From Patescibacteria group bacterium (GTDB lineage Bacteria; Patescibacteriota; Microgenomatia; UBA1406; GWC2-37-13): a stretch of 64,000 nt of DNA. This document shows, one piece after another, positions 5,579-54,278 of this stretch. The position numbers and the translations under genes are program-made. The notes under the pieces were generated by a model, which saw only the letters and a list, made by a program, of their open reading frames with translations, had not been told where the DNA came from and did no database searches. How positions within the stretch are numbered: position 1 is the first letter of the stretch; every line of letters starts with the position of its first letter. The stretch is from positions 69,207 to 133,206 of the forward strand of contig BPJE01000002.1 in NCBI GenBank assembly GCA_026004455.1, given 5' to 3'.

Positions 5579-6511
5579 ATGTTAAAAAATAACCTTTTAA
5601 ATTTTTTTTATCAAAAAATAAAACAACAATTAAAAAAATATCAATTCCAAACTTTTCTTCTTGGAATAAAAAACAACAATCTTAATGAAAATCAAAAAAA
5701 GAAAATAAAAATTGAGCTAGGAAGATTACTTGAAAAAACATTAGAAAAAAAAGTTGATTTTAAAAATCCTGATATTTTAATTGAGATTGATACTGAAAAT
5801 AAAAAAATTAATTTAAAAATTAAATCTCTTTATATTTTTGGCTATTATGAAAAAATAAAAGCCGGCATACCTCAAACTTTTTGGCATAAAAAAAGATATC
5901 AAACATCGGTACAAGAAGAAATCGGCAATATTATCTTATCCTATACTCAAGGTGACTCTCATAGTTTTCATGGTTGCGGAAGAGAGGATATTGATGTAAA
6001 AACAATTGGTAGTGGTAGACCTTTTGTTATTGAAATAAAAAATCCAAAAATAAGAAATATTGATTTAAAAAAAATTGAAGATGAAATTAATAAAAAATCA
6101 ACATATGTCAAAGTTCATAATCTTGAATTTTCAAACAAAGAAAAAATTAACGAAATCAAAAAAGCCACTCCAGATAAGACATATCAAGCAAAAGTTTTAC
6201 TTGAAAAAGAAGTTGACAAAAAAACTTTAATTGCTGCTTGTCAAAAATTAACTAACATCACTATCAATCAACAAACACCAACAAGAGTTTTAAGGCGAAG
6301 AGCAAATCTACTAAGAAAAAGAAAAGTATATTATTTCAAACTTTTAAAATATCATCCATTAATACCTATTTTTGAGATAAAAACTCAATCAGGTACTTAT
6401 ATAAAAGAGCTTGTTAGTGGTGATAATCAAAGAACAAGACCATCTCTATCAGAGATCCTTTCTCAAAAAACAATTGTCACTGAGTTAATTGTCGTAAAAA
6501 TAGATTATTAA
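5579..6511 (+). CDS. pus10: Pus10-family tRNA pseudouridine synthase
   Basis: Pus10 enzymes of archaea and eukaryotes make pseudouridine 54/55 in the tRNA T-loop. This 310-residue protein has the catalytic-domain signature HGCGREDIDVKTIGSGRPF (catalytic Asp is one of D137/D139) followed by VIEIKNPK. The C-terminus has YIKELVSGDNQRTRPSLSEI, which corresponds to the Pus10 KExVxGDxxRTxPS block. It is shorter than archaeal homologues (about 400 residues or more), and I see no N-terminal zinc-binding CxxC pairs, so only a reduced N-terminal RNA-binding part remains. The bacterial equivalent is TruB. A Pus10 here suggests transfer or replacement. The ATG lies a few nt after a TATA-rich box. Confidence 0.82.
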   Translation: MLKNNLLNFFYQKIKQQLKKYQFQTFLLGIKNNNLNENQKKKIKIELGRLLEKTLEKKVDFKNPDILIEIDTENKKINLKIKSLYIFGYYEKIKAGIPQTFWHKKRYQTSVQEEIGNIILSYTQGDSHSFHGCGREDIDVKTIGSGRPFVIEIKNPKIRNIDLKKIEDEINKKSTYVKVHNLEFSNKEKINEIKKATPDKTYQAKVLLEKEVDKKTLIAACQKLTNITINQQTPTRVLRRRANLLRKRKVYYFKLLKYHPLIPIFEIKTQSGTYIKELVSGDNQRTRPSLSEILSQKTIVTELIVVKIDY

Positions 6512-6516
6512 AAAGG

Positions 6517-6522
6517 TATAAT
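6517..6522 (+). promoter_or_regulatory. -10 box upstream of the tRNA-Ser 5' remnant
   Basis: A perfect TATAAT sits 28 nt before the broken tRNA-Ser half at 6551. I see no good -35 at normal spacing. It plausibly was the promoter of the original tRNA-Ser gene. It may now drive a transcript that runs through the remnant, the GIY-YIG gene and the intact tRNA-Ser. Confidence 0.45.
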
Positions 6523-6550
6523 ATAAAGATAAAAAGTAGCTTAGAATAGA

Positions 6551-6628
6551 GGAGAGGTGCGAGAGTGGTTTAATCGGCACGACCTGGTCGCCTAAAACGG
6601 CGACCCGCCGTCTTAGGCGGGAGAGCGT
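6551..6628 (+). pseudogene. Broken tRNA-Ser 5' half with two hairpins inserted in the anticodon loop
   Basis: The first 31 bases (6551-6581) are identical to the 5' end of the intact tRNA-Ser at 6895, covering the acceptor 5' strand, the D-arm and the start of the anticodon stem. After one extra A the copy continues CCTGG. It is then interrupted by two abutting hairpins: GGTCGCC-TAAAAC-GGCGACC at 6586-6605 and CCCGCC-GTCTTA-GGCGGG at 6604-6621. The tRNA sequence resumes as GAGAGCGT and stops. The variable arm, T-arm and 3' acceptor strand are missing. The hairpins belong to a short palindrome family seen elsewhere in the window. It is not a functional tRNA. Confidence 0.85.
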
Positions 6629-6655
6629 AATAAAAATATAATTTTGTTTAATTTA

Positions 6656-6895
6656 ATGTTTTATTATATTTACGTTCTAAAAAGCTTAAAAGACGGTAAT
6701 TTATATATCGGTAAAACAAAAGATTTGAAAAAAAGATTAAAATATCACAATCAAGGTTTAGTATTGGCAACAAAAAATAGAAGACCTTTAAAACTTGTTT
6801 ATTATGAAGCGTATACCAATAAAGAAAAATGGAGTAAACAAGAACTTTTTTATAAAACAGGAATTGGTAGAGAAACATTAAGACATAAATTGTAG
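6656..6895 (+). CDS. GIY-YIG nuclease-family small protein
   Basis: A 79-residue single-domain GIY-YIG protein of the YhbQ/UvrC-N type. The core is YYIYVLKSLKDGNLYIGKT, followed by the catalytic-type arginine and histidine in LKKRLKYHNQG and the metal-binding glutamate in KQELFYKTGIGRETL, so all key residues appear to be present. I prefer the Met at 6656 (MFYYIYVLKS) over 6644 because it matches the normal family start. The gene lies between a broken tRNA-Ser 5' half and an intact tRNA-Ser, and the last base of its TAG stop is the first base of that tRNA. This suggests a mobile or homing role, but housekeeping GIY-YIG proteins of this size also exist. Confidence 0.88.
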   Translation: MFYYIYVLKSLKDGNLYIGKTKDLKKRLKYHNQGLVLATKNRRPLKLVYYEAYTNKEKWSKQELFYKTGIGRETLRHKL

Positions 6896-6981
6896 GAGAG
6901 GTGCGAGAGTGGTTTAATCGGCACGCCTGGAGAGCGTGTGTGACGGAGACGTCACCGCGGGTTCGAATCCCGCCCTCTCCG
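6895..6981 (+). tRNA. tRNA-Ser (anticodon GGA)
   Basis: A complete 87-nt class II tRNA. The acceptor stem is GGAGAGG/CCTCTCC and the anticodon stem CACGC/GCGTG encloses the loop CTGGAGA, which gives anticodon GGA (serine codons UCC/UCU). A long variable arm GTGACGGAGACGTCAC and a T-arm GCGGGTTCGAATCCCGC complete it. The discriminator is G and CCA is not encoded. The 5' end overlaps the stop codon of the GIY-YIG gene by one base, and a truncated copy of its 5' half lies 344 bases upstream. Confidence 0.97.
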
Positions 6982-7025
6982 CAAAATTAAAAAAATCGAA
7001 TCTATTTTATTAACTGACTCTGCAG

Positions 7026-7085
7026 ACAGAATTCCTCCCACACCCCCCCTTCCGCCCATCTCGCCTTAAACCAAAGCGAAAAGAC
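7026..7085 (-). repeat. Island-boundary repeat, left inverted copy
   Basis: Read on the minus strand, this contains CTTTTCGCTTTGGTTTAAGG, then GCGAGATGGGCGGAA, then GTGGGAGGAATTC. It aligns with the right-hand copy at 9951-10070 (CTTTTCGCTTCCGCTTCAAG, GCGAGGCGGGCGGAA, TCGGGAGAATTC) in opposite orientation. It marks the left edge of the G+C-richer island just downstream of tRNA-Ser. Nothing recognisable lies between it and 7206 apart from a 30-codon open stretch at 7109-7201. Confidence 0.6.
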
Positions 7086-7205
7086 AAACTACCAAAGAAT
7101 CTGAAAAAATGTCGGCTTCAACTTTATTAAGGCCAGAAGCGGGCTTTTATTTACTGAATCAAAATTTTTTTGATATCTTCATTGAAGAATTGTTAAAATA
7201 ACCTT

Positions 7206-10134: not shown

Positions 10135-11415
10135 TTACCCACATTTCACATCCCCACCACATTTTGGACATTTTTCAATTAAAGTATTTTCTGGTCTTTC
10201 AACTTTTTTATGACAATGAGGACATTCAAACTCTAAAGAACCATATTTATCTGATTTTTCTTCAAACAATATCCCTCTTGGTCCAAATATATTATTTTCA
10301 AACGACCCTCGCCATGAATTTACTCCAAATAATTTTTCACTTTTATTATTTCCACCACCACTACATCCTGACATCATTTTTAAGCTATTAAATAAACTCT
10401 CATAATTTGGTTGATAAACTAAAAGATATCTTGTATCAGGATAAAAATTAAATTCTTGTTGTTTTCTTGGGTCAAAATTAATCATTGTTTTTTCTTGTTC
10501 TTTTTCTGTTAACTTCATCAAAATAAATCCAAAAAGAAAATCAATACCTCGCTCTAATTCTTGTTGTTGACTATTTTTTAATAAATTCATTAAATAATCT
10601 CTTGACCAATCAACTATATCGCTTATCTCATCATAAAATCTAAATAAATCATGATTTCCAATCATTTGGCTAATTCTATTTTCATTAATAGCTTCATTTC
10701 TATTAGTTTTTTGAAAATAATTTAAAAATAATCTTAAAAAACTTTCAAAATCAGAAAATTGAATATTTAATCCTGTGATCACTTTTAATTTTTCTTTTTC
10801 AGGTAGATTAGAGTTTATTTCTATATCTAAACTTTTTAAAAAATTTAAAATAGCATCTAAAGAAGTGTCTGTCCTTATTGTTAACCCTCTAATTTTACCG
10901 CCATCCCTCCAATAAATTTGACTCTGTGTTTCAGTATATTGATAATTTTTGCCGGTCCAACCCTGAGGAGAGGTCCTAAAAATAAACTCTCCTTCTTTTA
11001 ATTGTTTAAGTTTTAATTCTAAATCTAAAATTCCTTGATATACTGCCCCTTCTCTTTCTTCTTTATCTACCATATCAGACATTGGTTTATCAATATAAAG
11101 ATCTCCAATTAGCCTTCCACGATTATCAAATCTTAAACTAAAAGGTAAATAAGACTCTTGTTTTATATATTCCAAATAATATCCATAAACATCAAGTCTT
11201 AAAGTTGCAAAAGCCTCATCAAAACCTTTTTTTTGCAAAGTATCAATAAATAAATCTCTTTGATTATTTATTCTAAAACTAAAATCATTAAATCTTGAAG
11301 AGTTTAATTCCCACCATGAAGAAAAATTTTCTAATTGAGAACTATAGTCAAATTTTAATTGTAATCTTTCATCTGTATAAAAAAATCTTGGATTTTTTTC
11401 AGCTAAATACACCAT
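10135..11415 (-). CDS. Unknown protein with C-terminal zinc ribbon, under a cobalamin riboswitch
   Basis: I do not recognise this 426-residue protein. It is soluble, with no signal peptide or membrane segment, and rich in aromatic and charged residues. The C-terminus carries a zinc-ribbon pattern: ECPHCHKK, about 16 residues, then EKCPKCGGDVKCG. Just before it is an odd MMSGCSGGGNNKSEK stretch with another cysteine. The 5' leader is a cobalamin riboswitch, and the start codon is preceded by AGGGTGA at normal spacing. Known B12-riboswitch targets are B12 transport or synthesis genes and B12-independent isozymes or B12-dependent enzymes such as class II ribonucleotide reductase; I see no motif of these. 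A B12-linked job is inferred from the leader alone. Confidence 0.8.
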   Translation of the reverse strand: MVYLAEKNPRFFYTDERLQLKFDYSSQLENFSSWWELNSSRFNDFSFRINNQRDLFIDTLQKKGFDEAFATLRLDVYGYYLEYIKQESYLPFSLRFDNRGRLIGDLYIDKPMSDMVDKEEREGAVYQGILDLELKLKQLKEGEFIFRTSPQGWTGKNYQYTETQSQIYWRDGGKIRGLTIRTDTSLDAILNFLKSLDIEINSNLPEKEKLKVITGLNIQFSDFESFLRLFLNYFQKTNRNEAINENRISQMIGNHDLFRFYDEISDIVDWSRDYLMNLLKNSQQQELERGIDFLFGFILMKLTEKEQEKTMINFDPRKQQEFNFYPDTRYLLVYQPNYESLFNSLKMMSGCSGGGNNKSEKLFGVNSWRGSFENNIFGPRGILFEEKSDKYGSLEFECPHCHKKVERPENTLIEKCPKCGGDVKCG

Positions 11416-11438
11416 AATTCACCCTGCTCGGGGTAGAG

Positions 11439-11584
11439 AAGATCTAGTCGGTCTTCGGACTTTCCCGACTTTCGTCGAGGATCACCGCTGCGGCACAGTC
11501 CCGGATTTTCACCGGAGTTCCCAAATATTTTAAAGCCTTCCCATTCCGCCTAAAACGGCGAAACAGTGGCTTAAACTAGATCTT
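11439..11584 (-). promoter_or_regulatory. Cobalamin (B12) riboswitch
   Basis: On the minus strand the element is closed by a P1 stem AAGATCTAGT/ACTAGATCTT (11439-11448 with 11575-11584). Inside are, in order, AGCCACTG, GGGAAGGC, GGGAACTCCGGTGAAAATCC, GGGACTGTGCCGCAGCGGTGA and AGTCCGAAGACC, the conserved blocks of the cobalamin family including the B12 box. A small hairpin ACCC-CGAGCA-GGGT just before the ATG at 11415 includes the AGGG of the ribosome site, which suggests control of translation. The arm between AGCCACTG and GGGAAGGC is occupied by the window's CCGCCTAAAACGGCG palindrome (11546-11560). A TATAAT at 11597-11602 could be the -10 box. Confidence 0.95.
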
Positions 11585-41893: not shown

Positions 41894-43096
41894 TTATAAC
41901 ATAAATTTTCCGTCTTTGTAAATAAGTTTTTTTACGCCGTTTTTTAAAATCGCATAAACTTCTTTTTGCTGAGTGTTAATGATATCACAATGCTCGACTG
42001 ACTCATTAAAACCTAATTTCTTCCAATCTTTTTCCTTCATTTTGTTTTTATTCCCCGAATAACAATCATGATATGATGAACCAATTGCTAAATGGCTATT
42101 ACCCCAATCTCCGCCAAAGTTTTCATCATACAAAGTATTAGCCATAAATCGATTGATTTTTGAAAATCTTTTATCAGTTAAAGAAAATTCACCTATCTTA
42201 TCAGCATTTTTTTGACGAATCATCTCGTGAAGTAGTTTTTCATTTTTTTTCGCTTTTGCTTTGACAATAACACCATCTTTAAACTCCAAATAAATATCTT
42301 TTATCAAATTACCATAACGATAAAGGGGGAAATCAAAATAAATTTTTCCATTGACTCCCCGCCAATCAGGTGAAGTAAAGATCTCAAATGAAGGAATATT
42401 TGCTCCTCTGCCTCCTTGCCAAATCCGCTTTTCTCCTAAACTAATATAAATATCAGTGTCTTTTGAGATCATATGAAATTTTTCAACTGGCAAAGAATTC
42501 ATTTTTTTTCGCAAAGCCTCAATCTCTGAAAACACTTTTTTCCATTTTTCAATTGGTGACTCTTCATTTAAAAAACAAGCGTTGATTATTTGCTGCCAAA
42601 AATCCTCAATTGTCAATCCTGCTTCTTTTGCCATCCCTTCAGTGCCATAAAGACAAAGGGACCAAGTGAGCTTACCTTTATCCTCTTTTTCAAAAAGCCA
42701 TTTTTTCAAAATCTGACGAGATGAATTAGCCAAAACAATTTTTTTTGGATCAACATCTTTTAATAAAAATGGATTTTCCGGCGCAATCAGATAAAGCCGA
42801 TGATCAATTGTATCAACAAGAGATTTTAAATATTTTTTTGGGGTAAATTTAAGTTGTTCATCATTGGCTTTATCAAAAAATATCTTTTCAAACTCCTCTC
42901 TCGCCTCTTTAACAATTGGATGAGCGCCAATTTCTAAAATTCGCTCATAAATTGAGATAGCCAAAGGCAAAGCTGCTGCATCATAAACAAGATAAACTAC
43001 CTCTCCTTTTTTTACTCCTTTCCCCCTTCCTAAAGCAAAATCAACCATCACCGAAGCGTAATTTTTAAGAATTTTTTTATCTGGTTGATAGGACAT
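41894..43096 (-). CDS. M29-family metallo-aminopeptidase
   Basis: Cytoplasmic aminopeptidase of the thermophilic M29 type, 400 residues from the start I prefer at 43096 (MSYQPDKKILKNYASVMVDF). A TATACT box at 43103-43108 ends 6 nt before that ATG, so the longer frame to 43123 is unlikely. Family blocks are WQGGRGANIPSFEIFTSPDW, DRRF-like LTDKRFSKINRFMANTLYDE, and NFGGDWGNSHLAIGSSYHDC with metal-binding His/Glu/Asp residues. It probably recycles peptides, which suits a scavenging lifestyle. Possible -35 TTGATT with a 16-bp spacer. Confidence 0.9.
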   Translation of the reverse strand: MSYQPDKKILKNYASVMVDFALGRGKGVKKGEVVYLVYDAAALPLAISIYERILEIGAHPIVKEAREEFEKIFFDKANDEQLKFTPKKYLKSLVDTIDHRLYLIAPENPFLLKDVDPKKIVLANSSRQILKKWLFEKEDKGKLTWSLCLYGTEGMAKEAGLTIEDFWQQIINACFLNEESPIEKWKKVFSEIEALRKKMNSLPVEKFHMISKDTDIYISLGEKRIWQGGRGANIPSFEIFTSPDWRGVNGKIYFDFPLYRYGNLIKDIYLEFKDGVIVKAKAKKNEKLLHEMIRQKNADKIGEFSLTDKRFSKINRFMANTLYDENFGGDWGNSHLAIGSSYHDCYSGNKNKMKEKDWKKLGFNESVEHCDIINTQQKEVYAILKNGVKKLIYKDGKFML

Positions 43097-43102
43097 AAAA
43101 AT

Positions 43103-43130
43103 AGTATACAAAGAAAAAATCAAAAATCAA
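43103..43130 (-). promoter_or_regulatory. Leaderless promoter of the M29 aminopeptidase gene
   Basis: Minus-strand TTGATT (43125-43130), a 16-bp spacer and TATACT (43103-43108), ending 6 nt before the ATG at 43096. Confidence 0.55.
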
Positions 43131-43563: not shown

Positions 43564-43959
43564 ATGAAAGCTTTTTTGTCTTACAGTTTTGAAAATAAAA
43601 AAGAGTTTGAAAAGTTAAATAAAAATTTAAAAGAGTTTCTTAAAAAAGAATTTGATATTGATTGTTATTCTTTTGTTTTTGATTATAAAGAAAAAACTAC
43701 TAATAAAAAAATGATGAAAGATGCTTTAGAATTAATTAATAAAAGCGACTTGATTATTGCTGAATTGTCTTATAAATCAATTGGAATTGGAATAGAAATC
43801 GGTTATGCAAAAGCTAAAAACAAAAAAATAATCTATCTAAAAAAACCCAACACTCCCCTATCAACAACCGCTGAAGGAATTACTGATTATTTAATTGAAT
43901 ATAAAAACGAAAAAGATTTATTTGAAAAATTAACTAATGTTTTGAGTAAAATCTTTTAA
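43564..43959 (+). CDS. Nucleoside 2-deoxyribosyltransferase-like protein
   Basis: A 131-residue single-domain protein: KAFLSYSFENKKEFEKLN at the start, then DALELINKSDLIIAELSYKS and IGIGIEIGYAKAKNKKIIYL. The SDLIIAELS...GIEIGYA pattern is that of the nucleoside 2-deoxyribosyltransferase/DNPH1-like fold, with the glutamate of GIEIG as candidate nucleophile. Members swap bases on, or hydrolyse, deoxynucleosides. It lies convergent to pyrF, overlapping it by 30 bases, so a nucleotide-salvage role is reasonable. Exact activity is not certain. Confidence 0.72.
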   Translation: MKAFLSYSFENKKEFEKLNKNLKEFLKKEFDIDCYSFVFDYKEKTTNKKMMKDALELINKSDLIIAELSYKSIGIGIEIGYAKAKNKKIIYLKKPNTPLSTTAEGITDYLIEYKNEKDLFEKLTNVLSKIF

Positions 43960-44787
43960 TTTTTCTCTTGGATCCTCTGCAAATATCACGCTTCGAGAAA
44001 TATTGATAATTAATCCTTTTCCATTTTTATTTAATCCCTTTTTTAAGACTTGATTAATATCTCCTCCTTGAGAGCCAATACCTGGGACTAAAAACCAGAT
44101 ATCATCACCAACAATACTTCTTATCTCTTTTAACTGCCTTGGATAAGTGGCACCAATTACAAGTAAACAATTTTTATTCTTATTCCACTTATTTACCACC
44201 TGATAAGCTAAATATTGATACAAATTTAATTTTTTAAATTTTTGTTTACCCGCCGTTTTAGGCGGGATTTTTAACTTTTGACTTTTAACTTTTAACTTTA
44301 AATTTTGTATTTCCCCACTTCCCTCATTTGAAGTCTTACATAAAATAATTATTCCTTTATCTTTCATTTCCAAAAACGGCTTTAGGGCTTCACTACCTAA
44401 ATAAGGATTAACTGTCACCGCATCGGCTTGAAGATATTTAAAAACAAAATCAACATAACCACGGTTAGTATTACCAATATCAGCTCTTTTTGCATCAATT
44501 ATAATTGGAATTTCCGGATATTTTTCTCGCAAATAATCACAGGTAAGTTTTAACTCATAAATCCCCTGATGACCTATAGCCTCATAAAAAGAAGTGTTTA
44601 ATTTATATGAACAAACTAAATCAAAAGTCTTGTTAATTATATACTTATTAAAACTGTATTGAGGATATTTTTTTGCTTTAAATTTTTCCGTTATTTTTTC
44701 TAAATCACTATCCAACCCAACACAAATAAAACTTTTATTTTTTTCGACAATATTTTCTAACTTATAGAAAAAATTTTTATTATTCAT
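43930..44787 (-). CDS. pyrF: Orotidine 5'-phosphate decarboxylase (type 2) with repeat-derived insertion
   Basis: Last step of UMP synthesis. Catalytic signature IIIDAKRADIGNTNRGYVDF, N-terminal FICVGLDSDLEKITEKF, and C-terminal WFLVPGIGSQGGDINQVLKK with the phosphate loop. It is 285 residues. Between NEGSGEIQNLK and LYQYLAYQVVNKW lies an extra stretch reading KVKSQKLKIPPKTAGKQKF. This is encoded exactly by an ACTTTTG heptad array (44271-44303) and the CCCGCCGTTTTAGGCGGG palindrome (44249-44266), so repeats expanded a surface loop in frame. It is the last gene of the pyrimidine operon, after a hairpin. Confidence 0.93.
   Translation of the reverse strand: MNNKNFFYKLENIVEKNKSFICVGLDSDLEKITEKFKAKKYPQYSFNKYIINKTFDLVCSYKLNTSFYEAIGHQGIYELKLTCDYLREKYPEIPIIIDAKRADIGNTNRGYVDFVFKYLQADAVTVNPYLGSEALKPFLEMKDKGIIILCKTSNEGSGEIQNLKLKVKSQKLKIPPKTAGKQKFKKLNLYQYLAYQVVNKWNKNKNCLLVIGATYPRQLKEIRSIVGDDIWFLVPGIGSQGGDINQVLKKGLNKNGKGLIINISRSVIFAEDPREKLKDFTQNIS
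44249..44303. repeat. Palindrome plus 7-bp array inserted in frame in pyrF
   Basis: CCCGCC-GTTTTA-GGCGGG (44249-44266) is a perfect hairpin of the TAAAAC-loop family. It is followed by ACTTTTG, ACTTTTA, ACTTTTA, ACTTTAA heptads. The whole block keeps the pyrF frame open. Confidence 0.88.
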
Positions 44788-44813
44788 TTTTATTTATTAA
44801 AAAACTATTTATT

Positions 44814-44845
44814 AAAGACTGTCTTTAACAAAGACAGTCTTTTTT
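44814..44845. terminator. Hairpin of the AAAGACTGTCTTT family between pyrE and pyrF
   Basis: A perfect 13-bp stem AAAGACTGTCTTT, loop AAC, AAAGACAGTCTTT, followed by T's on the plus strand. It may terminate or attenuate transcription between pyrE and pyrF. Sister hairpins are at 49219-49254 and 63792-63834. Confidence 0.6.
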
Positions 44846-45440
44846 AAAAATTATTAAGCCAATTAATGACTTCCTGATATTTTTCTTGACTAATTTTTTT
44901 CTTTTCAAAAAGCACTTTAAGCCATTGTTTTAAAGTAAAAGCATAGTGAAGTTTTAAGCCATTTGAAGCTAAAAACTCTTTTCCACCTTGCTCTCTATCA
45001 AACAAAACTACAACATCTTTTATAACTAAACCACTATTTTTAAGTAAATTAATTGACTCAATCTTTGATTCACCAGTAGTAATCATATCATCAACTAAAA
45101 CCCCTATTTCTCCTTTTTCAAAACTTCCCTCATAAGCTTTTTTTGTACCATAATCTTTTACCTCTTTTCTCGTATAAATCCAAGGCTTGTTGTTGTAAAA
45201 ACTAATGGCTGCCACAATTGGTAAAGCCGTATATGGTACAGCAATCATCTGATGAAAATTTAATTTATCTAAAATCTCAAGATAGACTTTAGCTACATTT
45301 TTTAATATTTTTGGATAAGAGACTAAAACGCGAAGATCAATATAAACTGGAGAGATCATTCCTGATTTCAATTTAAAAGAACCAAATTTGATCGCTCCAA
45401 TTTTAAAAAGATCAATCATTAATCCTTCTTTATTTTTCAT
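44844..45440 (-). CDS. pyrE: Orotate phosphoribosyltransferase
   Basis: A 198-residue type I phosphoribosyltransferase that turns orotate and PRPP into orotidine monophosphate. The PRPP motif is GVLVDDMITTGESKIESINL, and the N-terminal FGSFKLKSGMISPVYIDLRV and VAKVYLEIL match OPRT. The flexible-loop KEVKDYGTKK is also present. It follows pyrD by 17 bases and precedes pyrF by 56 bases, with a hairpin between. Function is secure. Confidence 0.95.
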   Translation of the reverse strand: MKNKEGLMIDLFKIGAIKFGSFKLKSGMISPVYIDLRVLVSYPKILKNVAKVYLEILDKLNFHQMIAVPYTALPIVAAISFYNNKPWIYTRKEVKDYGTKKAYEGSFEKGEIGVLVDDMITTGESKIESINLLKNSGLVIKDVVVLFDREQGGKEFLASNGLKLHYAFTLKQWLKVLFEKKKISQEKYQEVINWLNNF

Positions 45441-45457
45441 AAATTAAATTAAAAATT

Positions 45458-46384
45458 TTAATAATCTTTTAACTGACCTAATTTATCTTCAATTTTATTT
45501 ATCTTTTTTTCTCTAAATATTTTTTCCAATTGTTTTTTTAAATTGCTAAAAATTTTTGGCCCTTTAAGAAGTCTTGTTCCAACTCCTACTAACTTTGCTC
45601 CTGCTAAAATATACTGATAAACATCATCGCCTGTCTCAACTCCACCAACACCAATAATATCAATTTTTCCTTGAGAAAATTTATGAAACAAAATCACTTG
45701 CGCTAAACTAATTGGTTTTAAAACTCTTCCTCCCAATCCGCCAATTCCTTGATTTGGCTTAATCACTAATCTTTCATTTTTTGTATCAATAAAAGCACCT
45801 AATGGATAAGAATTTATTAAAGTGACAAAATCAATTTTTAACTGCAGAAATTTTTCCGCGATTTTTTTAATTGTTTCTCGATCATTATATGGAGGAAGTT
45901 TAACACCAATAACTTTTTTTGTAATTTTTTTTAAGTTTTTTAAAATCTTAAAACTTAAGTCTAAATCATAAGCAAAAATTCCTTTTCCCTCTAAATTTGG
46001 ACAAGATAAATTCACTTCCAAACCATCAAAATCAGTATTATCAATTTTTTCTGCTAAAATATAAAACTCTTTTTCCTTAAAACCAGCAAAACTAGCAATT
46101 AATGGCTTTTGATATTTTTTTAATTTTGAGGCTATTTGACAATAATAATCAACACCAAGATTAGGAAGACCCATACTGTTTATAGAAAAATCATCAGTAA
46201 CATAAAGTCTTGGTTCAGGATTACCAACTCGTTTTTCTAGTGTCATTGTCTTAAACACCACTCCACCTGCCTCACTTTTTAAAATCTCATCAATTTCATT
46301 TTCCGTCGTACACCAGACACCAGAAGCATTTAAAAAAGGAGTCTCAAATTTTAAATTTTTAATTCTTACTGATAAATCAATCAT
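45458..46384 (-). CDS. pyrD: Dihydroorotate dehydrogenase (class 1)
   Basis: A 308-residue FMN enzyme that oxidises dihydroorotate to orotate. Clear motifs: FLNASGVWCTTENEIDEIL, VNLSCPNLEGKGIFAYDLDL, VTLINSYPLGAFIDTKNERL and IIGVGGVETGDDVYQYILAG. The residue at the usual catalytic Cys/Ser position is the Cys of LSCPNL or nearby; I cannot assign it with certainty, so subclass 1A versus 1B is open. I see no PyrK-type electron-transfer gene. It overlaps the amidohydrolase gene upstream by 4 bases. Confidence 0.92.
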   Translation of the reverse strand: MIDLSVRIKNLKFETPFLNASGVWCTTENEIDEILKSEAGGVVFKTMTLEKRVGNPEPRLYVTDDFSINSMGLPNLGVDYYCQIASKLKKYQKPLIASFAGFKEKEFYILAEKIDNTDFDGLEVNLSCPNLEGKGIFAYDLDLSFKILKNLKKITKKVIGVKLPPYNDRETIKKIAEKFLQLKIDFVTLINSYPLGAFIDTKNERLVIKPNQGIGGLGGRVLKPISLAQVILFHKFSQGKIDIIGVGGVETGDDVYQYILAGAKLVGVGTRLLKGPKIFSNLKKQLEKIFREKKINKIEDKLGQLKDY

Positions 46385-47361
46385 TTTTTAATTCCTAAAA
46401 CTTTTAATCCATTAATAGTTGCAATTTTTACTAATTCATCAATCTCATAAAAATGATTAGCTTCAAGCAAAAATCGCAGTTCAGTCCACATATCAGCATC
46501 AGTAAAAGGCTTATAAATATCAGCAATATTATCTGTTCCCAAAGCAACTACTAATCCATAAGGCACCATCTCATCAACCGGAGTCACAGCATTATGAGTC
46601 ACTGACAACTCTTCACTTCGTCGACTATCAATCCAAGCAGTGGGGCAAGATACAAACATCAGATTGACTTCTTTTGCCATCTGATAAATCTTTTCCCGAT
46701 ATTTTTTTGGATGAGACGCTAAAGAAATCGCATGAACCGCCACCACTTTTCCCTCCATTTTCGCTTGTTTTGTCTTTTTAATTAAAAGTTCTGTTTCTTT
46801 TTCTTTTGAGGTATTTAATTGATCAACATGAACATGAACCATCTTCCTTAAATCTTTTCCTTTTTGCAAAATTATCTCTAAATGTTCCTCCTCTTTTCCT
46901 TTATCTTTTCCCGGAAGTCCACCAATAATATCCACAAACTCTGCTCCATAATCAAACCAATAACGAGCTTCTTTATCAATCACTCCTTTTAAAACTTGAT
47001 TAATAAACTTTATTTTTATTTGTTTTTCATATCTGTCCTTAATTTTTTGAGCTGCTTTAATTGCTTTGTCTTTTATCACCTCATCAATATCAATGAAGCT
47101 TCCAATTGTCTGCACTCCTTGAGAAAGCATTATCTCTACTGCATAAGCCATTCGATCATAAATCTGAGAAACGGTTGATTTTCTTTTAATCTCATCAACC
47201 AAACTCCATTTTTCTTGTAATCTTGCTCCAGTAAAAGAAAAATTTTTTTTCGTCAAAGTAAAAGCCCGATCTAAATGACTGTGAGCATTGACAAAACCAC
47301 CATTTTTTTTAATTTTTTTTAAAATCTCTGTTTTTAAATCAAAATAATTAATTTTTTTCAT
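46381..47361 (-). CDS. Amidohydrolase, cytosine-deaminase-like fold, in the pyrimidine operon
   Basis: A 326-residue metal-dependent hydrolase. Metal ligands are visible as NAHSHLD (His27, His29), HVHVDQ (His178), VAVHAIS (His210) and ALGTDN (Asp277), the layout of the cytosine deaminase (CodA) branch. In CodA the His is followed by CDE, where Glu is the key acid/base. Here the matching residue is Gln181, so deamination as in CodA is doubtful. It sits between the ArgG-MGS gene (2-base gap) and pyrD (4-base overlap). No pyrC is present in the operon. A dihydroorotase-like or related ring-closing role is an attractive inference, unproven. Confidence 0.82.
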   Translation of the reverse strand: MKKINYFDLKTEILKKIKKNGGFVNAHSHLDRAFTLTKKNFSFTGARLQEKWSLVDEIKRKSTVSQIYDRMAYAVEIMLSQGVQTIGSFIDIDEVIKDKAIKAAQKIKDRYEKQIKIKFINQVLKGVIDKEARYWFDYGAEFVDIIGGLPGKDKGKEEEHLEIILQKGKDLRKMVHVHVDQLNTSKEKETELLIKKTKQAKMEGKVVAVHAISLASHPKKYREKIYQMAKEVNLMFVSCPTAWIDSRRSEELSVTHNAVTPVDEMVPYGLVVALGTDNIADIYKPFTDADMWTELRFLLEANHFYEIDELVKIATINGLKVLGIKK

Positions 47362-47363
47362 AG

Positions 47364-48980
47364 TTAATGAGTTAATTTTTCTAATTTTTCAATAAATTTT
47401 TTTGCTACTTCAACATCAGTGATCAGATAAGTCTTATTTTTCAAAGCATATTCTCTGATCATCTGACCATCAGTTTTTTCTTTTGGTGATACTCTTCTTC
47501 CTGTCGGAATATTGATAATCAAATCAAATCGATTTTGTTCTAACAAATCAAGCAAATTTGGTTTTAAATGTGGTTGGAAAATTTTATTGACTAAAATTGA
47601 CTCAATTCCCAAACTTTTTAAAAATTTATGAGTTTTGTAAGTAGCATAAATTTTGTATTTCATTTCCGCCAGTTTTTTTATTTCTTTTGTTAATTTGATT
47701 TTATTAGCTCTTTTTCCAATTGATAAAAGAACAGTTTTTTCTGATCGTTGGGCCAAACGCATTTGCAAAGTATAAAGCTCAATAAATCCAGCTGAAGCAT
47801 TTTGATTAAAAGCTTTTGAAGACATAAATGTTGCTAGTTTTTCATCAAATATTGTATTTGGTGTCTCAACTGCCACTGCCTCAACTGATCCTTTATAAAG
47901 TTTTAAAGTGACTTTACCAGTGACTTTTTGATTTAAATGATCAATGAAAGCATTTAAATCAGCCATCAAAGGCTCATACCAAAAACCTCCATAACACAAA
48001 TATGCCCATTTAATATCAACCTCACTTTTGAACTCATTCTCAACTCTGGTGCAAACATATTTTTCCAAATTGCGATGAGCAGTAATGATAATCTCAGCTG
48101 CTGGCGCCTCATAAACTCCTCTAACCTTCAAACCAACTACTCTATCTTCAATATGATGAGTAATACCGACACCGTGTTTAGCACCAATTTTATTTAAGGT
48201 TAAAATCAAATCAGCTAACTTCATATTTTTACCATTCAAAGCCACTGGAATTCCTTTAATAAAATTTAAATCAATATACTCTGGTTTATCAGGAGCTTTT
48301 TCTGGAATATTGCAAACAAGTAAAATTTTTTCAAGCGGTGGAATTAAAGCTGGATTTTCAATCTCTCCTCCCTCTCCTGTCACTCCCCACATATTATCAT
48401 CATAAGAATAAGGTTTGTCTGAAGTTTGCCTCACTGGAATACCGTGTTTTTTTGCATACTCAAGCTCTTCATCTCGACCCATTGACCACTCGCGAACCGG
48501 CGCAATAATCTTAATGTCAGGATTTAAAGTCAAAGCTGTCCCCTCAATTCTCACCTGATCATTGCCTTTTCCAGTACAACCATGAGCAATACAATCAGCT
48601 CCTTCAATAGCTGCAATTTTTACTGCCCATTTTGCTAAAAGTGGTCGACCTAAGGGAGTTGATAAATGATAATTGCCTTGATATGAGGCATTGGCTTTTA
48701 TTCCTTTAGCAATATATTCATTAGCAAACTCTTCTTTAGCATCAACTACATAAGCTTTAATCGCTCCAAGTTTTAAAGCTTTTTTTCTAATCTCCTCCAA
48801 ATCATCTGCTTGCTGACCAATATCAATTGTTAAAGCAATTACTTGAGCTTTATACTCATCTTGTATCCATTTAAGCATAACTGAGGTATCCAGTCCACCT
48901 GAATAAAGCAAAACAACTTTTTTTACCTCACCCTTTCTTCCTTCATAAGATGAGACCTTGATATACTCTGTTTTTTTCAT
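47364..48980 (-). CDS. argG: Argininosuccinate synthase fused to a CarB-type MGS-like regulatory domain
   Basis: This 538-residue protein is about 120 residues longer than normal ArgG. Residues 1-412 are a full ArgG: VVLLYSGGLDTSVMLKWI (PP-loop), YHLSTPLGRPLLAKWA, IAHGCTGKGNDQVRIEGTAL (aspartate site), APVREWSMGRDEELEYAKKH, and KPYSYDDNMWGVTGEGGEIE. From about 413 comes an MGS-like domain: KTVLLSIGKR, YKIYATYKTHKFLKSLGIES, VNKIFQPHLKPNLLDLLEQN, then FDLIINIPTGRR and DGQMIREYALKNK. It resembles the allosteric C-terminus of carbamoyl-phosphate synthase, and the phosphate-contact Thr/Thr/Lys pattern (ATxxT, NK) is kept. It leads the pyr operon, so feedback control by a nucleotide is likely (inference). 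Confidence 0.92.
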   Translation of the reverse strand: MKKTEYIKVSSYEGRKGEVKKVVLLYSGGLDTSVMLKWIQDEYKAQVIALTIDIGQQADDLEEIRKKALKLGAIKAYVVDAKEEFANEYIAKGIKANASYQGNYHLSTPLGRPLLAKWAVKIAAIEGADCIAHGCTGKGNDQVRIEGTALTLNPDIKIIAPVREWSMGRDEELEYAKKHGIPVRQTSDKPYSYDDNMWGVTGEGGEIENPALIPPLEKILLVCNIPEKAPDKPEYIDLNFIKGIPVALNGKNMKLADLILTLNKIGAKHGVGITHHIEDRVVGLKVRGVYEAPAAEIIITAHRNLEKYVCTRVENEFKSEVDIKWAYLCYGGFWYEPLMADLNAFIDHLNQKVTGKVTLKLYKGSVEAVAVETPNTIFDEKLATFMSSKAFNQNASAGFIELYTLQMRLAQRSEKTVLLSIGKRANKIKLTKEIKKLAEMKYKIYATYKTHKFLKSLGIESILVNKIFQPHLKPNLLDLLEQNRFDLIINIPTGRRVSPKEKTDGQMIREYALKNKTYLITDVEVAKKFIEKLEKLTH

Positions 48981-51893: not shown

Positions 51894-52952
51894 TCACATC
51901 ACTTCAACATCGTGCAGACCAGACTCAATGAGAGATGCTTGGGTGATCTGAATAAATTCTGCTTTTTTCCAAAGTTCTTCAATATTTTTTGCTCCTGAAT
52001 ATGAAAATCCTGATTTTACTCCGCCAATAAGCTGAGTCACTAAATCAGAAACAGTCCCTCGATAAGGAACAACCGCCTCAACTCCTTCAGTCGCATATTT
52101 TTTTAAATCGCGTTTAAATGACTCATCTTTTTGTTGCCTGTCAACATTAGCCATAAGTGAGGCCATACCGCGAGTTAATTTATATTTTTTATTATTTCTA
52201 AAAAAAGTCAAAGCCGGACTTTCCTCACAACCAGCAAAAAGCGATCCAATCATTACAGTTGATGCTCCAGCTGCTAAAGCTTTAACAATATCTCCAGATT
52301 GCTTTATCCCACCATCAGCAATAATCGGCACTTGATATTTTTTTGCCACTTCAACACAATCAGCAATTGCTGTCAACTGTGGTACTCCAGCACCAGTAAC
52401 AATTCTTGTTGTACATAAAGCACCCGGACCAATACCAACCTTTACTGCTGAAGCACCATTTTTTATCATCTCCTCTGTTACCTCAGCTGTTGCCACATTG
52501 CCAACAATAAAATCAGTTTTTGGAAATTTTTTAGTTAATTCACTTAAAATTTTAAGTAGAAAAGTACTATAACCATGAGCAATATCAATAACAATCACAT
52601 CAGCACCTGCTTTAATTAAAGCTTTAGTTCGCTCTAAATAATCGCCTCTTATCCCAATTGCCGCACCAACCAAAAGCTTTTCTTTTTTGACCTTTTTTAT
52701 TTCTTCAACTTGTGCCTCAATTGTTAAAAATCGATGAATTATTCCAATTCCACCCATTCTTGCAATTGCAATTGCCATTTCGCTTTCTGTAACTGTATCC
52801 ATATTAGCAGAAATAATAGGAATTTTTAGAGTAATTCTTTTAGTTAGTTTTGTTGTTAAATCAACATAACTTCGTGACTCAATTGAAGTTTTTTTTGGAA
52901 CTAGTAAAACATCATCAAAAGTCAAACCAATATCTTTTCTGATATTTAACAT
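51894..52952 (-). CDS. guaB: IMP dehydrogenase lacking the CBS domains
   Basis: Oxidises IMP to XMP, the first step toward GMP. The catalytic loop is [20 protein letters not shown] (Cys in ALCTTR), with [20 protein letters not shown] and [20 protein letters not shown], and the C-terminal [20 protein letters not shown]. At 352 residues it is about 130 shorter than most IMPDHs. The segment between [11 protein letters not shown] and [13 protein letters not shown] has no CBS pair, so allosteric control by purine nucleotides is absent. GMP reductase is the main alternative, but the ESGLHDVEV end and the loop favour IMPDH. It follows purB and purA on the same strand. Confidence 0.88.
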
Positions 52953-52971
52953 ATTTAGGGACGGTCCTTTA

Positions 52972-54278
<1,307 letters not shown>

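Follow-up and report, generated by a model that had tools for sequence, protein, structure and literature searches.

To our knowledge, aspartate transcarbamylase (ATCase) and dihydroorotase (DHOase) are treated as universal in the de novo synthesis of pyrimidines. The nearest earlier work to the system considered here concerns Thermococcus without carbamoyl-phosphate synthase (CPS), in which arginine synthetase (ArcE) supplies arginine-derived carbamoyl phosphate and ATCase is still used (PMC13260591). The present system is an operon in a 64,000-nucleotide stretch of DNA (the window) from a Patescibacteria group bacterium of the candidate phyla radiation (CPR; assembly GCA_026004455.1, contig BPJE01000002.1, positions 69,207 to 133,206). 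Its leading gene specifies an argininosuccinate synthase fused to a CarB-type MGS domain (ArgG-MGS), and is followed by genes for an amidohydrolase (AH), PyrD, PyrE and PyrF. ArgG-MGS and AH are likely, in our judgement, to stand in for CarA, CarB, PyrB and PyrC at the entry to the pyrimidine pathway, by way of argininosuccinate. In the literature searched, which included few subscription papers, neither an ArgG-MGS fusion nor a pyrimidine route through argininosuccinate was reported.

Organization of the operon

A first-pass annotation, made from the sequence alone, had placed five genes in the order ArgG-MGS, AH, pyrD, pyrE and pyrF, with gaps of 2, -4, 17 and 56 bases, the negative value being a 4-base overlap of pyrD and AH. 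A recheck of the window bore out order and spacing and put all five on the - strand:

47364..48980, - strand: ArgG-MGS; ArgG at approximately residues 18-414 and CarB-type MGS domain at approximately 434-521, by profile matches
46381..47361, - strand: AH, amidohydrolase of family NF005365/PRK06886 (455.7 bits)
45458..46384, - strand: pyrD, dihydroorotate dehydrogenase, class 1A-like (NF002702, 327.8 bits, cut-off 301)
44844..45440, - strand: pyrE, orotate phosphoribosyltransferase (TIGR00336, 125.8 bits, cut-off 106.8)
43930..44787, - strand: pyrF, orotidine monophosphate decarboxylase, type 2 (TIGR02127, 225.3 bits, cut-off 110.6)

Replacement of the canonical genes

The operon contains no carAB, pyrB or pyrC, as the annotation had stated, and the same genes are missing from the rest of the genome. 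It was examined whole (894,682 bases in 5 contigs; completeness 92%, contamination 2.4%) for these genes and for argF and argH, and none was found in the 895-kb sequence. Searches with tblastn gave no significant match to CarA, CarB, PyrB, class I PyrC, ornithine transcarbamylase (OTC) or ArgH, nor to carbamate kinase, arginine deiminase (ADI) or a dimethylarginine dimethylaminohydrolase (DDAH)-like protein. The E. coli PyrC query found nothing, and that with E. coli CarB returned one significant match only, the MGS domain of ArgG-MGS itself. The family searches (PF02729; TIGR00857, PyrC; PF02787, CarB; TIGR00838, ArgH) agree on these genome-wide gaps. PyrG and a cytidine-deaminase-like gene are encoded.

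In G003, a member of the same genus, a canonical operon runs in the order flanking gene, another gene, pyrF, pyrE, purB-like, divergent pyrD, pyrC, carB, carA, pyrB, another gene, guaB-like and purA. The order in the window is flanking gene, a small + strand open reading frame (ORF), pyrF, pyrE, pyrD, AH, ArgG-MGS, two + strand genes, guaB-like and purA. The genes that mark the two sides of this slot are:

41894..43123, - strand: operon-flanking gene, syntenic slot marker (72% identity to the flank of the canonical G003 pyr operon)
51894..54269, - strand: guaB-like gene (inosine monophosphate dehydrogenase) and purA, the other flank (79% and 72% identity to the G003 genes upstream of pyrB)

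Given these shared flanks, ArgG-MGS and AH sit in place of pyrB-carA-carB-pyrC.

Co-occurrence in related genomes

Forty-five related genomes were compared, grouped by the presence of ArgG-MGS, for which an open frame of at least 530 amino acids was required; two of the genomes, G021 and G059, have small contig-end fragments. By tests that ignore kinship, ArgG-MGS occurred in 13 of 14 AH genomes against 1 of 31 others (p=2.6e-9), CarB in 1 of the 14 genomes with ArgG-MGS and in 15 of the 31 without it (p=0.008), and PyrC in 1 and 16 of these, respectively (p=0.007). CarB and PyrC are both missing from 13 of the 14 ArgG-MGS genomes; the exception, G021, has both systems, and its second argG, an ordinary one, lies next to argF and argH.

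In 13 further genomes of the phylum, and at 13 loci of another phylum, ArgG-MGS and AH adjoin each other or are separated by a single gene, and such recurrence in two phyla indicates that the arrangement is not due to chance. In most genomes the neighbours of ArgG-MGS are AH and pyr genes rather than argH or argF, ArgH lying nearby only in genus g13 (G031, G058).

Only G051 has ArgG-MGS but no AH; its ArgG-MGS operon includes another amidohydrolase, possibly a non-orthologous replacement of AH:

L157 (G051) 5760-7103, - strand: TRZ/ATZ-type amidohydrolase, 8-oxoguanine-deaminase-like

The genome searches were imperfectly sensitive, the DDAH-like gene of G051 having been missed by the PF02274 search.

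At two related loci (L018 5192-7111 and L022 4675-6576) the divergent PyrD is of approximately 630 amino acids, with a C-terminal extension resembling a phosphoribosyltransferase; that of L018 contains the motif VLIDDVFTSGKT. These may be PyrD-PyrE fusions; the extension had no Pfam match in either.

The ArgG-MGS protein

The fusion of ArgG to a CarB-type MGS domain, previously proposed from the translation, was upheld by matches above cut-off to NF001770 (525 bits, cut-off 334) and TIGR00032 (474.5 bits, cut-off 268.2) over residues 18-414, and to PF02142 (51.6 bits, cut-off 24.1) over residues 434-521. Scoring above the curated cut-off and possessing the PP-loop SGGLDTS, the protein qualifies as a full-length argininosuccinate synthase. 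Its C-terminus is also matched by CarB models, and its MGS domain is the only one detected in this genome.

Residues corresponding to K954, T974, T977, K993 and N1015 of E. coli CarB, in the pocket for uridine monophosphate (UMP), are kept in all 28 aligned ArgG-MGS copies, and the T1017 position is replaced, mostly by Pro. K954, T974 and N1015 we take, from CarB structures, to be further residues of this pocket. Binding of UMP and inhibition by it have been linked to Thr977 and Lys993 of CarB (PMC6245113). The conserved pocket suggests that ArgG-MGS would bind UMP and be feedback-inhibited through its MGS domain.

In the synthase portion, where the roles of the pocket residues are presumed from solved ArgG structures, the aspartate site is kept. 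The citrulline site departs from that of Thermus at S89 (Pro) and S182 (Thr); its residues are the same as those of the ordinary CPR ArgG encoded beside argF/argH in sister genomes. The ureido donor is probably citrulline rather than urea. A role for ArgG-MGS in arginine synthesis was rejected since argH is missing from this and seven other AH genomes.

The AH amidohydrolase

AH scored 455.7 bits against NF005365/PRK06886 (cut-off 340), a family without assigned function ('hypothetical'), and was matched weakly by cytosine deaminase models (72.5 bits against an NCBIfam cut-off of 483). Its closest solved structures are AtzC (E-value 2e-39) and then cytosine deaminase. All 26 homologues aligned have the metal ligands H27, H29, H178 and D277, and also the catalytic histidine, H210. 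On alignment to AtzC, the metal site (H60, H62, H217, D303) and H249 are kept, the K65 position is basic, and the Asn304 position is Asn in most homologues. The region of CodA Glu217 and AtzC His219 reads D180-Q181, with Q181 at the Glu position in 26 of 26 sequences, and the position of CodA Gln156 and AtzC Gln160 is L124 in the window protein, a near-invariant Gln lying two residues earlier. These motif differences make AH a subfamily of its own. As none of the 26 homologues retains the catalytic Glu, a plain cytosine deaminase acting in salvage was rejected. Structure models of AH and ArgG-MGS built from two-row alignments had low confidence (mean predicted local distance difference test scores of 50 and 44) and were left unused.

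A six-membered cyclic form of argininosuccinate occurs besides the five-membered one. AtzC hydrolytically removes isopropylamine from a triazine ring (PMC4577212), and argininosuccinate loses water to form cyclic anhydrides, of which the five-membered one has been described (PMC6918381).

Substrate and citrulline supply

Three genomes (L109, L111, L157) have a DDAH/arginine-dihydrolase-like gene next to ArgG-MGS, and G031 and G058 have one away from it. Carbamate kinase-OTC occurs in the same genomes as ArgG-MGS in G062 and G512 (L245, L246), and an aspartase-like gene occurs at L119. Three hints, namely the citrulline-pocket residues in common with ordinary CPR ArgG, the citrulline-forming enzymes that accompany ArgG-MGS, and the pairing of AH with ArgH elsewhere, point to argininosuccinate as the substrate of AH: whether beside ArgG or ArgH, AH is beside an enzyme of this shared metabolite. 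Argininosuccinate is therefore the likely intermediate. As sources of citrulline in this genome, ADI and DDAH were rejected, neither being in the full sequence; a tentative ArcE-like candidate from L245 is likewise absent.

AH-ArgH pairs and the AsnRS-like ligase

AH stands beside ArgH instead of ArgG in eleven genomes from other CPR classes (AH with short-form ArgH at L110, L112, L113, L114, L115, L118 and L120-L124). These were rejected as further cases of replacement, since pyrB is kept in 9 of the 11, in eight of them with pyrC beside it, and AH comes there in addition to the canonical genes. As speculation, AH together with ArgH working in the reverse direction might turn arginine and fumarate into carbamoyl-aspartate. 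In G441 (L118) carAB adjoins the AH-ArgH pair and no OTC/ATCase match was found.

Seven AH genomes (G020, G031, G032, G058, G062, G076, G150) encode a paralogue of the asparaginyl-tRNA synthetase (AsnRS) core without the N-terminal anticodon-binding region; none of the AH-negative genomes among those screened does. In most it has its own MGS domain, and it often lies between AH and pyrD. One idea is that this ligase closes the ring in an ATP-dependent reaction, by activating the aspartyl beta-carboxylate. The fusions of AsnRS core and MGS domain are:

L018 7092-8582: AsnRS core + MGS
L021 15756-17297: AsnRS core + MGS
L027 6911-8398: AsnRS core + MGS
L028 10180-11598: AsnRS core + MGS
L116 12471-13970: AsnRS core + MGS

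Occurrence in a second phylum

A search of genome contigs for related loci returned only Spirobacillus cienkowskii (order Silvanigrellales, Bdellovibrionota). AH was found in 14 of 58 genomes of its class, and from their clustering with Spirobacillus we infer that these 14 are Silvanigrellales. ArgG adjoins AH at all 13 loci fetched and carries the MGS domain at 12, the ArgG without MGS being of the Spirobacillus type; a divergent PyrD and then PyrE follow the ArgG-AH pair at 12 of the 13. All ten transcarbamylases typed from these AH genomes were OTC (HCLP motif) and none ATCase, one weaker second match in G512 having been left out of the typing; no transcarbamylase was found in G514, G518 and G522. 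Spirobacillus yielded no CarB, OTC/ATCase or PyrC, the PyrC search within the order having covered Spirobacillus only, and encodes an ADI (210 bits).

Six genomes possess a carA-carB-OTC operon (L238-L241, L243, L244). PF02142 was missing from the four CarB proteins tested (L238-L241), whose tails have lost the UMP-pocket residues of E. coli CarB; three Silvanigrellales ArgG carry PF02142 at 55-58 bits. On a plain reading, the UMP sensor would have moved from CarB to ArgG in this order, since ArgG would now be the committed pyrimidine step and carbamoyl phosphate would serve only for citrulline. A tree of AH groups Silvanigrellales in a single clade (100/100) nested within the CPR sequences associated with ArgG, and a tree of ArgG places them as sister to CPR G077 (100/99). 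A single lateral transfer of the ArgG/AH pair between CPR and Silvanigrellales fits best, its direction depending on the rooting.

Proposed route

ArgG-MGS would convert citrulline, aspartate and ATP to argininosuccinate as the committed entry step, under feedback by UMP through the MGS domain. AH, as an AtzC-like metal-dependent hydrolase, would then cleave the C-N bond that links the guanidino carbon to the nitrogen of ornithine. From open argininosuccinate this would give ornithine and carbamoyl-aspartate, with ring closure still required; from the six-membered cyclic form, a 2-alkylamino-dihydroorotate, it would give ornithine and dihydroorotate directly, which would account for the missing PyrC. 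PyrD, PyrE and PyrF would complete UMP. Ornithine would thus act as a carbamoyl carrier, reloaded by CarAB and OTC in Silvanigrellales or by carbamate kinase and OTC in a few genomes. Other genomes may convert arginine to citrulline with ADI- or DDAH-like enzymes, and in the present one citrulline is probably imported. The annotation had suggested ArgG-MGS as the point at which pyrimidine synthesis is entered and regulated, and had raised the idea that it might, with the amidohydrolase, supply carbamoyl-aspartate or dihydroorotate. Both suggestions gain support from the missing carAB, pyrBC and argF/argH and from the AH and pyr neighbours. Gene content, the exchange in one slot, the operon partners and the conserved motifs are observed; the chemistry, including the substrates, the ring closure and the binding of UMP, is inferred.

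We also lean, less firmly, towards a wider view, namely that there is a third entry to pyrimidines besides ATCase/DHOase and salvage. This would be an ornithine-carried 'pyrimidine cycle' of OTC, ArgG-MGS and AH, producing dihydroorotate from argininosuccinate. Its UMP sensor would have moved from CPS to ArgG; it would be common to CPR and a Bdellovibrionota order, and in some genomes an AsnRS-derived MGS ligase would close the ring.

Alternative explanations

Several observations weigh against the favoured route. The full sequence of this genome yielded no source of citrulline, so that import has to be assumed. Where CodA and AtzC have their catalytic Glu/His and their Gln, AH has other residues, and its reaction is therefore not directly readable from these homologues. 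The canonical pathway is kept in AH-ArgH genomes of other classes, AH alone not being diagnostic, and the AsnRS-like MGS ligase of some AH genomes, absent here, has a role that the route leaves unexplained. The co-occurrence tests, which take no account of kinship, give p-values that are indicative.

The lack of a citrulline source would suit urea or another small ureide as donor, in which case ArgG-MGS would form guanidinosuccinate, which would cyclise and be deaminated by AH in the manner of a cytosine deaminase to dihydroorotate and ammonia. AH does belong to the cytosine deaminase/AtzC group. We nevertheless hold this to be unlikely, as the citrulline pocket equals that of CPR ArgG beside argF/argH, citrulline-making genes recur with ArgG-MGS, and AH pairs with ArgH elsewhere. 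That ArgG-MGS and AH belong to arginine/citrulline metabolism and merely share an operon with pyrD, pyrE and pyrF, these being relics or serving orotate salvage with no de novo pyrimidine synthesis, is a reading which the retained hallmarks of argininosuccinate synthase and the complete absence of early pyr genes from many CPR would allow. It is made rather improbable by the lack of argH in eight AH genomes, the linkage to pyrD/E/F repeated in two phyla, the exact exchange with canonical genes in one slot, and the UMP-pocket residues of the MGS domain on ArgG.

Least probable of all, we believe, is that AH stands in for DHOase only, carbamoyl-aspartate coming from another, unrecognised enzyme. 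AH and DHOase do share the amidohydrolase superfamily, and PyrC is missing from 13 of 14 ArgG-MGS genomes; however, AH matches AtzC and CodA, not DHOase, ArgG-MGS would be left unexplained, and eight AH-ArgH genomes already have both PyrB and PyrC.

Other features of the window

A nucleoside 2-deoxyribosyltransferase-like ORF (43564-43959, + strand; PF05014, 31.7 bits) is convergent with pyrF, which it overlaps by 30 bases. In the operon leader, two terminator-like hairpins (49309-49227, - strand) lie upstream of what resembles a promoter (49117-49089); an Rfam scan gave no match there. A cobalamin riboswitch (Rfam RF00174, 48.3 bits; 11429-11569, - strand) precedes a 426-amino acid ORF (10135-11415) that has no Pfam match.

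Significance and comparison with known systems

If correct, the route would be a novel addition to central metabolism that bypasses ATCase and DHOase, employs ornithine as carrier and places the UMP sensor on another enzyme. The uncharacterised family NF005365 would gain a function, and some CPR genomes now counted as without the early pyrimidine genes might be able to make pyrimidines, provided that they can obtain citrulline or arginine. The route is directly testable in cultured Silvanigrellales.

With the canonical CarAB-PyrB-PyrC-PyrD-PyrE-PyrF pathway this genome shares pyrD, pyrE, pyrF, the chromosomal slot and an MGS domain on the presumed entry enzyme, but CarAB, PyrB and PyrC are replaced by ArgG-MGS and AH. 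The allosteric domains of CarB and ArgG-MGS are alike in PF02142 and in their UMP-pocket residues; the carrier is CPS in the one and ArgG in the other (elsewhere also the AsnRS-like ligase). AtzC, the nearest solved relative of AH (PMC4577212), shares with it the metal ligands, the catalytic His, a basic residue at K65 and, in most homologues, Asn at N304, while the H219 and Q160 positions differ. The urea cycle and arginine synthesis (OTC-ArgG-ArgH) would have in common with the proposed route the steps from ornithine through citrulline to argininosuccinate, which ArgH splits to arginine and fumarate but AH would hydrolyse to ornithine and a pyrimidine precursor. In the ArcE system of Thermococcus (PMC13260591), as in the proposed route, arginine or citrulline feeds pyrimidines in cells without CPS; there OTC regenerates carbamoyl phosphate for ATCase, whereas here no ATCase was found.

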